Origin: a virus
DNA length: 27,123 nucleotides
Reading direction: 5' to 3' (one strand)
IMG/VR virus record: IMGVR_UViG_3300043446_003391
Location: 1-27,123 of that record
Of the stretch, positions 6,747 to 27,123 are shown one piece after another. The notes beneath the pieces were generated by a model. The model did no database searches. It saw only the letters and a program-made list of their open reading frames with translations, and had not been told where the DNA came from. Made by a program: the position numbers and the translations under genes. Each line of letters begins with the position of its first letter. Position 1 is the stretch's first letter.

Positions 6747-7770
6747 TTATCTCACGAACGTGTCCAAACGTCCAAACACTTCACTTAACCATACTTGATA
6801 ATTGGGAATATTGTTCCACATCTTGTCCTCGGTTATAAGTTTGGAAAAATTGAACCTGTCCAGCTTTTTGACTGGACCGTCTAGTATTTCGTTGATACGG
6901 AGTTGTGAGAAACTTTGAATCTCCGTATTTTTTAATTGCATCAATGTATGGTTTCTTTCAACTATACTCTTGTTGTCCAAAATTGTTCTATAAACCTTGT
7001 ACTTGCTGTGATTGTTTTCACAGTGGTTATAGATTTCGTTCAATGTAACTTCTCTGTCTTCTGACAAAAATGGAAATGCCTTTATGATGGTTTTCAAACC
7101 AGCGCCATAAATGCCGTCGATGTTGTCCGATTCATCGCCTTCAAGAACTCTGTACCATATGAAGTTTTTACAACTGATTCCATATTCGTTCAGAATTTCA
7201 GCACACCCATAAAGTTTTTTCTTGGTAGGACTCCACACTTGAATTCGTTCATTTGTCAACTGTAGAAAATCCTTGTCGGCACTCATTATGGTTACATTGG
7301 TGTCATCTTTATAGTATTGTTGTGCAATGTAAGCAATGGTGTCGTCTGCCTCAATATGATCGATTGCCATAGTAGTGATAGGCAAACAATCAAGATAGTG
7401 TATGGATCTCATCAACTGTGCCTTGAGATTCTTTTCTTCCAAGTCGGCAGTAGAAAGATCGCTGTATGCTCTATTGAGTCGGAGTTTTGTTTTCTTGCGA
7501 TCTTTGTATTCAGGATAAATCTTACGACGTTTCATACTTCCGCCGTTTCCATCGAATACAATTACGCATCGTGATGCGTTCAACAATTTCAACGCATATC
7601 CTACGCTTTTGAGAAATCCGGAGATGCCGCCGGTATGAAGACCATCGTCGTTCATCGACGGCACCACTGAGTATGCTCGGATAAAAGTATTGACGCTAGA
7701 GGCCGTCAACCAACAGAATATTACTATTTACGAGTCTATTCAATTCTGTTGTGACGGCCTCTCCTTTCAT
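6747..7770 (-). CDS. 5'-3' exonuclease (T4 RNase H / FEN family), split by a +1 frame change near codon 24
   Basis: The main body (6747-7697 in one frame) is a FEN-like 5'-3' exonuclease that removes RNA primers and flaps during lagging-strand synthesis. It shows VIVFDGNGGSMKRR, IEADDTIAYIA, MSADKDFLQ and EGDESDNIDGIYGAG, which carry the acidic metal ligands and the H3TH-like DNA-binding loop. The only start in this frame is a weak TTG at 7709, and that form would lack the first catalytic Asp. In the other frame, an ATG at 7770 gives MKGEAVTTELNRL...NILLVDGL and then TAG (7696-7698). VDGL is exactly the missing N-terminal motif, expected to continue as NTFIR, which is found just past the stop. 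A +1 shift or a 7-base bypass at CTC-TAG would restore the enzyme. Alternatively the gene is broken, or a sequencing error is present. Confidence 0.85.
7698..7762 (-). other. 20-bp hairpin ending at the in-frame TAG of the exonuclease gene
   Basis: Arms AGAGGCCGTCA (7698-7708) with TGACGGCCTCT (7752-7762), and CAACAGAAT (7711-7719) with ATTCTGTTG (7743-7751), pair perfectly, with only a 2-base bulge (7709-7710) and a 23-base loop. The hairpin spans codons 3-24 of the N-terminal frame. The TAG stop overlaps its 3' foot. See the recoding finding. Confidence 0.85.
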
Positions 7771-7777
7771 GTTTTCG

Positions 7778-7802
7778 AAAAGAGAAAATAGTCTTCTCTT
7801 TT
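7778..7802 (-). terminator. Hairpin at the end of the homing endonuclease gene (possible weak terminator)
   Basis: A perfect 9-bp stem, AAAAGAGAA (7778-7786) with TTCTCTTTT (7794-7802), and a 7-base loop begin at the endonuclease stop codon. They end 8 bases before the exonuclease ATG. The 3' arm is T-rich, but little U-tract follows, so termination would be weak. It may also control exonuclease translation. Confidence 0.45.
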
Positions 7803-8737
7803 CATTTTCGTTTATGTTTGTCATTTAATATATCTTCTATAAATTGTTTTTTATTATCGCATCTTTCCCAATCAAACTGCCAAATAGTTTCTGCACGATA
7901 TCCTTTTTGGATTGCTGTTTCAATTTTTAATTGATCTTTTTCCCAAATTTTAGATGATTCTTTGTCATTATAAAACCTTGGATCTCTATGCCAATATGTA
8001 CCATTGAATTCTATTATCAAATTTTTTTCAAATACATATACGTCATATGGTTTTCCATTGATGATATATTCATCTTTGACGGTATATCCAGCGTTTGTAA
8101 TAATATCGATTATCTCACTATGTCCTTTAGATTTATAAATTGGTTTATGAACGCCATTTATCCATTGTTGTTTTGTAATTTCAGAAAGTTTACTTTTTGT
8201 CTCATCTGAGTGAGTGAAATTGATTCTAGTTTTGGATTTCTTCTTCCTAAGTTTTAGTTTATGTGATTCACTTAACGGTTTATCTTTCAGTGACAATCGT
8301 ATTTTATTTATAGTTGTTTGAGAATGATGATATCCTCGTCTGCTTTCTTTGCGCTTTAATTTTGAGGCTTCTGATTGACTGTGCGGAAGACAGTATTTTA
8401 TCATCGATTCTCTAGATTTAGATTTTGCTAATTCATTGTTTTTCCAATAACGATTAACTCCATCTATCATTTTTTGTCTACGATCTTCCGATATGTAGTA
8501 ACTTTCTAATGATCTGTTTTTGTGAGCATTTTTTGCGGTCCTATGACGTGATATTGAGTTTATCACATCTTTTCCATAAATGTCATATAAAATTGACCTT
8601 ATTTTTTGTGCAGTTTTACTTCCGATACATTTAATTCTAAAAATAGAATTTAGCCCACAATACGTTTCATTTTTTATAAATTCTTCATAGATTTCATTTG
8701 CTAAAAGATTAAGCTTTTCCGCTTTGCTTGTATTCAT
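7802..8737 (-). CDS. Free-standing homing endonuclease, NUMOD3-like repeats plus Vsr/PD-(D/E)xK-type nuclease
   Basis: A 311-residue protein. Residues ~138-190 contain repeated NUMOD3-like DNA-binding motifs (HSQTTINKIRLSL, LSESHKLKL, HSDETKSKLSE), typical of phage homing endonucleases. Residues ~217-290 form a nuclease fold of the Vsr/DUF559-like type: PYDVYVF (Asp232), LIIEFNGTYWH (Glu243, His250), a Lys-rich helix, then GYRAETIWQFDWE. Related Vsr-like (EDxHD) enzymes include I-Bth0305I, which lies in a phage recA intron. Here too the gene directly follows the recA/uvsX gene. The N-terminal ~115 residues are basic and unassigned. The gene is visibly more AT-rich than its neighbours, lacks a Shine-Dalgarno site and is flanked by hairpins, all consistent with recent insertion. 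It probably cuts alleles lacking it and spreads by repair. Confidence 0.85.
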   Translation of the reverse strand: MNTSKAEKLNLLANEIYEEFIKNETYCGLNSIFRIKCIGSKTAQKIRSILYDIYGKDVINSISRHRTAKNAHKNRSLESYYISEDRRQKMIDGVNRYWKNNELAKSKSRESMIKYCLPHSQSEASKLKRKESRRGYHHSQTTINKIRLSLKDKPLSESHKLKLRKKKSKTRINFTHSDETKSKLSEITKQQWINGVHKPIYKSKGHSEIIDIITNAGYTVKDEYIINGKPYDVYVFEKNLIIEFNGTYWHRDPRFYNDKESSKIWEKDQLKIETAIQKGYRAETIWQFDWERCDNKKQFIEDILNDKHKRK

Positions 8738-8787
8738 GTCAATAAATATAAGACAAAGCGGAAAAGCATCTAATGAACCTAATTTTA

Positions 8788-26504: not shown

Positions 26505-27123
26505 TTATGATTCTTTCAAAGAATGTTGTTGATCGTATGTTTTGGAAATTGTGTCTTTGATAGCATCGATGTGTTTTTTGGATCTCAACAGTTTAAACAC
26601 TATGTTTTCGGTGCTAAATTCACCACCTTTACTAAGTCCGGTTTCACGCATATTGTAGATCGATTTCAATATACGTTTCAATTCTTCAATGTTTTTGGTT
26701 TTAACGGCATTTCGTATTTGCAAAACAATGGCCGAATAAAGTTTCTGAATGTTTGATTTATCGAGGTTTAGAGATAGTTTTTGTGGTACTTTGATCCATT
26801 TATTGTTTAAAACACTGTATACACCCATTGCTCTATTTATCTCGTTGATATCCTGAATGTATGTTTCTACTTTGTATCCTTTTATGGTTATGTTGTGTTT
26901 TTTATTCCAGTTGGCTTTTATGTTGTCCGCCAACTTTTTGACCAGCTCTTTATCGGATCCAATTTTTGAAAAGTCTACAATCACATGAAGATCAATATCG
27001 CTATGTGGCCCCCAGTTATAATTAGCTACGCTTCCCAAAATATAAATGTCCTGAATTGGTGCTTTTAGTTCCGAATCAGTATAGAAATCCTGTGCAATTT
27101 TTATCAAAGCACTTCGAACTTCC
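26505..27123 (-). CDS. Nucleotidyltransferase-like protein (5' end cut by window edge)
   Basis: The frame is open to the right edge. A TTG at 27107 could serve as a start, but the codons before it (EVRSA) read on naturally, so the true start is probably outside. The first visible ~45 residues contain LGSVANYNWGPHSDIDLHVIVDF, the GS(x)nDxD signature of the polymerase beta-type nucleotidyltransferase fold, with both metal-binding Asp residues. The C-terminal ~100 residues are helical and Lys-rich (LQIRNAVKTKNIEELKRILKSIYNMRETGLSKGGEF), as in the helical domain of minimal nucleotidyltransferases. It could transfer a nucleotide to RNA, a protein or a small molecule; the substrate cannot be read from the sequence. 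Such genes occur in several T4-like phage genomes with unknown role. Confidence 0.8.
   Translation of the reverse strand, partial: EVRSALIKIAQDFYTDSELKAPIQDIYILGSVANYNWGPHSDIDLHVIVDFSKIGSDKELVKKLADNIKANWNKKHNITIKGYKVETYIQDINEINRAMGVYSVLNNKWIKVPQKLSLNLDKSNIQKLYSAIVLQIRNAVKTKNIEELKRILKSIYNMRETGLSKGGEFSTENIVFKLLRSKKHIDAIKDTISKTYDQQHSLKES

Follow-up and report, generated by a model that had tools for sequence, protein, structure and literature searches.

The 5'-3' exonuclease gene of the virus behind IMG/VR record IMGVR_UViG_3300043446_003391 carries a stop codon and a change of frame just after the codons of its N-terminal VDGL motif, and the same interruption recurs in many other viral loci. 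Very probably, programmed translational bypassing in the form of short "stop-hops" yields the exonuclease, and these hops have spread as an endonuclease cassette. With distinctly less confidence, we also favour a wider reading in which bacterial viruses contain widespread, unrecognised natural stop-hops over 5-11 nts that depend mainly on the re-pairing of a single hairpin at the mRNA exit and need no long nascent-peptide signal; these would be spread between phages by endonucleases and have become fixed in endonuclease-free form in other phage lineages. The window referred to below is the whole stretch analysed, i.e. positions 1 to 27,123 of the record.

Anatomy and recurrence of the interruption

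On the minus strand of the window, ORF, Pfam and PHROG analyses place the exonuclease after genes for a gp32-like ssDNA-binding protein, a recA-like recombinase and an endonuclease-like protein of 311 aa; the ORFs downstream, judged from their sequence, would encode a replicative helicase and subunits of ribonucleotide reductase. The exonuclease belongs to the 5'-3' exonuclease / FEN family (match to the Taq 5' nuclease, E 8.9e-16), its VDG being aligned with that of the Taq enzyme via the intact homologue L003. The Asp of the N-terminal VDG in the Taq 5' nuclease is a metal ligand, in agreement with the initial annotation, which had assigned the first metal-binding Asp to VDGL.

Table 1. Elements of the interrupted exonuclease locus, in window coordinates
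Feature	Position	Strand	Remarks
Exonuclease 3' half (body)	6747..7691	-	NTFIR to stop, 314 aa; Pfam 5_3_exonuc_N, E 1.4e-25
Cassette and co-converted flank relative to empty allele L003	7668..8784	-	approximate extent, from alignment with L003
Non-coding gap TAGCGTC, 7 nt	7692..7698	-	missing from the L003 and L005 alleles
Proposed landing codon GTC	7694-7692	-	last triplet of the gap; compare gap types
Exonuclease 5' half	7696..7824	-	42 codons and TAG; carries VDGL with the first metal-ligand Asp
20-bp hairpin	7698..7762	-	3' arm spans the codons for ILLVDGL up to the stop
Proposed take-off codon CTC (Leu)	7699..7701	-	assigned by the logic of T4 gene 60
Free-standing homing-endonuclease-like gene, 311 aa	7802..8737	-	between recA and exonuclease; PHROG matches; missing from L003
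Perfect 14-bp hairpin	8713..8767	-	inverted repeat; loop holds the endonuclease start codon

Translated from ATG 7824, the 5' half reads MTNINENEKRRLFSLFENMKGEAVTTELNRLVNSNILLVDGL and ends with ...NILLVDGL at TAG 7698-7696. It overlaps the 3' end of the endonuclease-like ORF and aligns with the start of the protein in uninterrupted relatives (MNNNINQDEKKRLFSLFENISNEEKG...NILLVDGLNTFIR in L003). The frame from ATG 7770 to this stop, with which the gene had been thought to open, is present, but ATG 7824 fits the N-terminus of the relatives and is probably the natural start. The body lies in another frame, which stays open between AAT 7691 and the stop at 6747, and its Pfam match supports the view that the exonuclease continues out of frame from NTFIR.

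Interrupted loci were gathered from IMG/VR by homology to the body or to the endonuclease and by pattern scans; the identical codon boundary is interrupted in at least 91 loci which, as some contigs were fetched more than once in repeated scans, comprise at least 35 unique sequence contexts. DG followed by L or T invariably precedes the break and N follows it. The stop is TAG, TGA or TAA, and the gap measures 5, 6, 7, 8 or 11 nts, which places the body in all three frames; skipping the gap yields the normal protein every time. Written as presumed take-off codon plus gap, the types include CTC TAGCGTC (window, L004, L008), CTC TAACGTC (L006), CTG TAGTG (L026), TTG TAGTG (many loci), ACT TAGCT (L102), ACG TAGCT (L241), CTA TAGAAAA (L100), CTC TAACGC (L239), CTT TGAAGAAGCTG (L105) and CTG TAGATACG (L388). 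The commonest class is a large set of in-frame 6-nt gaps, mostly without endonuclease, such as CTT TAG CTT, CTG TAG CTG, CTC TGA CTC and CTT TAA CTC. None of the papers that we found in the open-access literature described this set of interrupted exonucleases.

Most relatives of the body on viral contigs read uninterrupted ...NILLVDGL-NTFIR.... One of them, L003, is a near-isogenic empty allele (identity to the window 99.0 % in 3.9 kb on the upstream side and 98.6 % in 4.9 kb on the downstream side) that lacks the endonuclease gene, the gap and any such hairpin; its body differs from that of the window by 14 synonymous and 0 amino-acid changes. Further pairs of interrupted and uninterrupted alleles have bodies that are 97.7-99.8 % identical (L006/L005, L048/L037, L057/L040, L064/L066, L074/L079 and L193/L187). 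The gap was not found in the best cultured relatives, Microcystis phage Mel-JY01 and Flavobacterium phage immuto, which have a plain exonuclease gene between recA and a helicase.

A functional gene and the case for bypassing

The body is under purifying selection in interrupted copies, with 72.5 synonymous against 13.5 non-synonymous changes between L043 and L064 (dN/dS 0.034) and a dN/dS of 0.057 between L048 and L043. The 5' half is constrained as well (pS 0.50 versus pN 0.16 between the window and L004). The 12 records examined, ten of them interrupted, have a single exonuclease gene each, which excludes an additional intact copy in them. The existence of intact alleles (L003, L005) would fit a pseudogene, a mutation or an assembly error, and a 7-base insertion or a faulty assembly had indeed been listed as alternatives at the outset. 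However, the interruption recurs in dozens of independent assemblies in which the body is otherwise open, dN/dS is about 0.03-0.06 among interrupted copies, and there is one copy per record, which leaves this explanation a practically negligible probability. Taken together, the conservation of stop and hairpin across many independent contigs, the selection on both halves, the single copy and the near-isogenic intact alleles strongly support the view, already put forward in the initial annotation, that these sequences reflect recoding and not decay: relatives with a plain single frame do exist, and the interrupted copies alongside them are not decaying.

Homing endonucleases are documented to split genes (PMC2988022), and the 42-aa N-terminal peptide might likewise assemble with a separately initiated body, as with nrdA of phage Aeh1, split by mobE. 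Possible starts are at hand in the window, which has a TTG in the body frame (7709), and in the TAGTG types, in which a GTG overlaps the stop. In five lineages (L102, L104, L106, L239 and L241), however, a stop closes the body frame and no ATG, GTG or TTG precedes NTF, so that ordinary separate initiation of the body is unavailable there; reinitiation is ruled out by the same five lineages. A split would, moreover, part the metal-ligand Asp from the remainder of the enzyme and leave both the co-variation of the hairpin and the match between take-off and landing codons, described below, unexplained. We consider a split gene very unlikely.

The first reading of the window had left the choice between a +1 frameshift and a short ribosomal bypass. 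A pure +1 frameshift of the prfB kind is ruled out by the homologous gaps of 5, 6, 7, 8 and 11 nts, which fall in three frames, whereas bypassing would restore the protein for all of them. Several kinds of conventional recoding could still be combined, i.e. a +1 shift at the 7-nt gaps, readthrough at the 6-nt gaps and a -1 or +2 shift at those of 5, 8 and 11 nts, with extra residues added between DGL and NTF. The 6-nt class is in frame, and there readthrough alone would suffice to restore the body, with two additional residues, and may be what takes place. Such a mixture would nevertheless need different mechanisms at one homologous site with the same hairpin and with all three stop codons, and CTC-TAG offers a poor site for a +1 slip, since the Leu anticodon GAG pairs poorly with UCU according to established pairing rules. 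The added residues would also adjoin the first metal-ligand Asp, in a place where D-x-x-N is kept in 138 of 138 intact loci ("intact" being defined by that spacing, yet with zero loci falling outside the two classes). Mixed recoding of this sort is thus an unlikely explanation, if the least unlikely of the rivals. With gaps in every frame, the one event that would give an identical protein throughout is a skip to NTF; a short bypass is therefore preferred, and as a single mechanism it would account for all gap classes, that of 6 nts included.

In the stop-hop that we propose for the window, the ribosome would read up to the Leu codon CTC and meet TAG, whereupon the peptidyl-tRNA would release, the mRNA would slide by 7 nts and the tRNA would re-pair at GTC; decoding would restart at AAT and give an uninterrupted ...VDGL-NTFIR.... 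The anatomy, recurrence, co-variation, selection and presence/absence polymorphism are observed, whereas the hop itself, its efficiency, the motor role of the hairpin and the protection from cleavage discussed below are inferred. Over 22 types, 43 of 66 positions are identical between the take-off and the landing triplet (mean of 32.6 after shuffling, p 0.0005). Agreement reaches at least two of three positions in 18 of the 22 types, with CTC/GTC in the window and a full match in three, and drops to one of three in four types (landing triplets AAA in L100, ACG in L388, GCT in L241 and GTA in L304). The landing triplet follows changes of the take-off codon (CTC-GTC, CTG-GTG, ACT-GCT; also CTG-CTG and CTT-CTT), as predicted by re-pairing of the same tRNA.

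The same protein would also result from every gap length if the 5-11 nts were removed from the RNA by hairpin-guided splicing or processing. We know of no reaction that excises 5-11 nts from a phage mRNA, an Rfam search of the window gave no match, and the similarity between take-off and landing codons would be left unexplained; removal at the RNA level thus appears highly improbable. A group I intron or another known RNA element was likewise rejected, there being neither an Rfam match nor, given recA and the endonuclease, space for an upstream exon.

The hairpin at the boundary

Folding recovered the 20-bp hairpin that had been reported to end on the TAG. Its stem consists of 9 and 11 bp separated by a 2-nt bulge and encloses a 23-nt loop; the 111-nt fold has an MFE of -34.7 kcal/mol (z -5.6), which none of 200 shuffles equalled. 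Within one set of unique interrupted contexts, the stem is present in 19 of 19; an upstream arm pairs with the codons of (I/V)L(L/V)(V/I)DG, and z values range from -4 to -7 relative to mononucleotide shuffles, compared with an average of -2.5 in uninterrupted loci. The interrupted contexts retrieved by pattern scans also have strong structures, ending a few bases from the stop.

The hairpin is kept and its arms co-vary in interrupted lineages. Pair types change from lineage to lineage (e.g., G-C/A-T/T-A), with two to four types at positions -3, -4, -7, -13, -16 and -19. Co-variation was measured from the folded pairs and by arm swapping, as MAFFT misaligned the arms of divergent hairpins. Cognate pairing ranks best of 362,880 arrangements for nine lineages, and none of 100,000 shuffles equals the natural pairing for 12 more divergent representatives; these are not strict probabilities, because the lineages are homologous and permutation assumes independence.

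Some intact alleles also have a strong hairpin, so the presence of one is not by itself diagnostic. That of intact L037 and L066 is a different structure in another register, ending about 11 nts before the boundary, and the mark of interrupted alleles is a stem that reaches the take-off codon or its neighbour. In L066 (3458-3532), and also in L037 and L079, all uninterrupted alleles of one lineage, such a strong hairpin lies within coding sequence, in the 75 nts that precede the exonuclease body; in L066 and L079 it pairs AAGGAGG, a Shine-Dalgarno-like segment, with its complement CCTCCTT.

The hairpin is the likely motor of the proposed hop. Its 3' arm extends to the take-off codon or close to it, so that it would be inside the ribosome at take-off and could re-pair with the 5' arm only as the mRNA moves in the 5' direction; renewed pairing where the mRNA leaves the ribosome would draw the mRNA backwards and thereby move the ribosome forward. 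The N-terminal part comprises just 19 codons in L104 and 26 in L105, compared with 42 in the window. L104 and L105 are too short for a nascent-peptide signal at about 30 residues from the P site, as in gene 60 (a KKYK-like peptide at that distance is impossible in L104), whereas the 42 codons of the window might contain one; given such short N-terminal parts, we propose a hairpin-driven stop-hop of 5-11 nts.

The probable endonuclease cassette and known bypassing systems

The endonuclease-like gene matches the PHROG families "homing endonuclease" and "HNH endonuclease" (E 1.7e-10 and 2e-11). It has no Pfam match, a match with just 29 % coverage in the phage collection and weak matches only in bacterial and archaeal genomes. 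Its conserved pattern D...EFNGTYWHxDxR...WQxD is reminiscent of the Vsr-like catalytic core of EDxHD/Vsr-like homing endonucleases of the I-Bth0305I type. The gene is the probable driver of the cassette. The 14-bp hairpin around its start codon probably serves as an expression control; it resembles hairpins by which T4 homing endonucleases are kept from being translated early, and a similar one persists at that place where the endonuclease is deleted (L006, L045, L064).

Endonuclease and insertion show presence/absence polymorphism together, and several lineages have the insertion without the endonuclease. Among the 121 unique contexts counted before pattern scans added interrupted loci mostly without endonuclease, the gene order recA, endonuclease, exonuclease occurs in 18 of 25 interrupted and 3 of 96 intact contexts, leaving 7 with the interruption only and 93 with neither (Fisher 4e-13). 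Identity between the window and L004 is 91-92 % for recA and exonuclease but 61 % for the endonuclease, which points to transfer. Only endonuclease remnants are left in L006 and L007, and the gene is lost from L008, L045 and L064; gap, hairpin and intact body remain in all five. We read these loci as cassette invasion followed by endonuclease loss, which is the direction we infer. In the lineage of the window, stop, gap and hairpin would have come in as a mobile cassette together with the homing endonuclease; by destroying the target of the endonuclease, the gap would render the element immune to its own enzyme, while the hop would hide the damage. In the 6-nt lineages that lack the endonuclease, the gap may also have arisen without any such gene. 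Loci with an endonuclease and an intact exonuclease (L101, L103, L221) count against the combination of cassette and bypass.

Related endonuclease genes or remnants at the same place, next to an uninterrupted exonuclease, were seen in L101, L103, L108, L221 and L242-L249; boundary codons differ there (NLFIR, NQFIR, DGT-NTFLR), perhaps forming a cleavage-resistant site. More distant relatives of the endonuclease occur away from recA and the exonuclease (L109-L160, L251-L269).

Programmed bypassing is essentially represented by T4 gene 60 and yeast mitochondrial elements, and counterparts over shorter distances have long been expected (PMC5009743). In T4, a homing endonuclease, MobA (PMC2988022), is tied to gene 60; the topoisomerase gene was split by a homing endonuclease, and a possible role of the 50-nt insert that is bypassed in gene 60 is protection from cleavage (PMC5009743). 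In the published model, an upstream stem-loop completes its pairing at the mRNA exit and acts as a motor (PMC5009743, PMC11194080). The comparison with T4 gene 60 made in the initial annotation has turned out to be apt; what it had missed is the adjacent homing-endonuclease-like gene, which repeats the link between mobA and gene 60. Further shared features are a stop directly after the take-off codon, similar take-off and landing codons, disjoint halves and a 5' stem-loop proposed to pull the mRNA. However, the gap is 50 nts in a topoisomerase gene in T4 and 5-11 nts in the exonucleases, where the endonuclease is different, the stem is longer and extends with its 3' arm up to the stop.

Synthetic stop-hops in E. 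coli, in which matched codons flank a stop and 9 nts are read as one amino acid (PMC5009743), resemble CTT-TAG-CTT, CTG-TAG-CTG and CTC-TGA-CTC of the 6-nt class, but the exonuclease set is natural, conserved and equipped with a co-varying hairpin. The bypassed inserts (byps) of Magnusiomyces capitatus mitochondria, for which an imperfect match of take-off and landing is accepted (PMC5009743), are similar in that insertions are avoided by bypassing with such a match, and differ in that the present set is found in phages of bacteria, in one gene, with an upstream hairpin and a stop in the A site. A Leu codon followed by a stop is shared with the +1 frameshift of bacterial prfB; unlike in prfB, there is neither a fixed +1 relation nor a Shine-Dalgarno-like sequence just upstream of the codon, and a hairpin is present instead.

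The exonucleases provide dozens of natural variants with three frames, three stop codons and co-varying hairpins, together with near-isogenic interrupted and uninterrupted alleles and, in some cases, N-terminal parts that leave no room for the known peptide signal, so that the power source of the slide and the choice of the landing site become directly testable. They also suggest how a selfish gene may break a strongly selected gene and have the damage concealed by decoding. Gene callers will call such exonucleases truncated.

Two other ORFs on the minus strand of the window deserve mention: a short one at 1537-1743 that consists almost entirely of Thr-Pro repeats (PTPTPTP...), and one at 26505-27107 with a nucleotidyltransferase-like start (LGSVANYNWGPHSDIDLHVIVDF).
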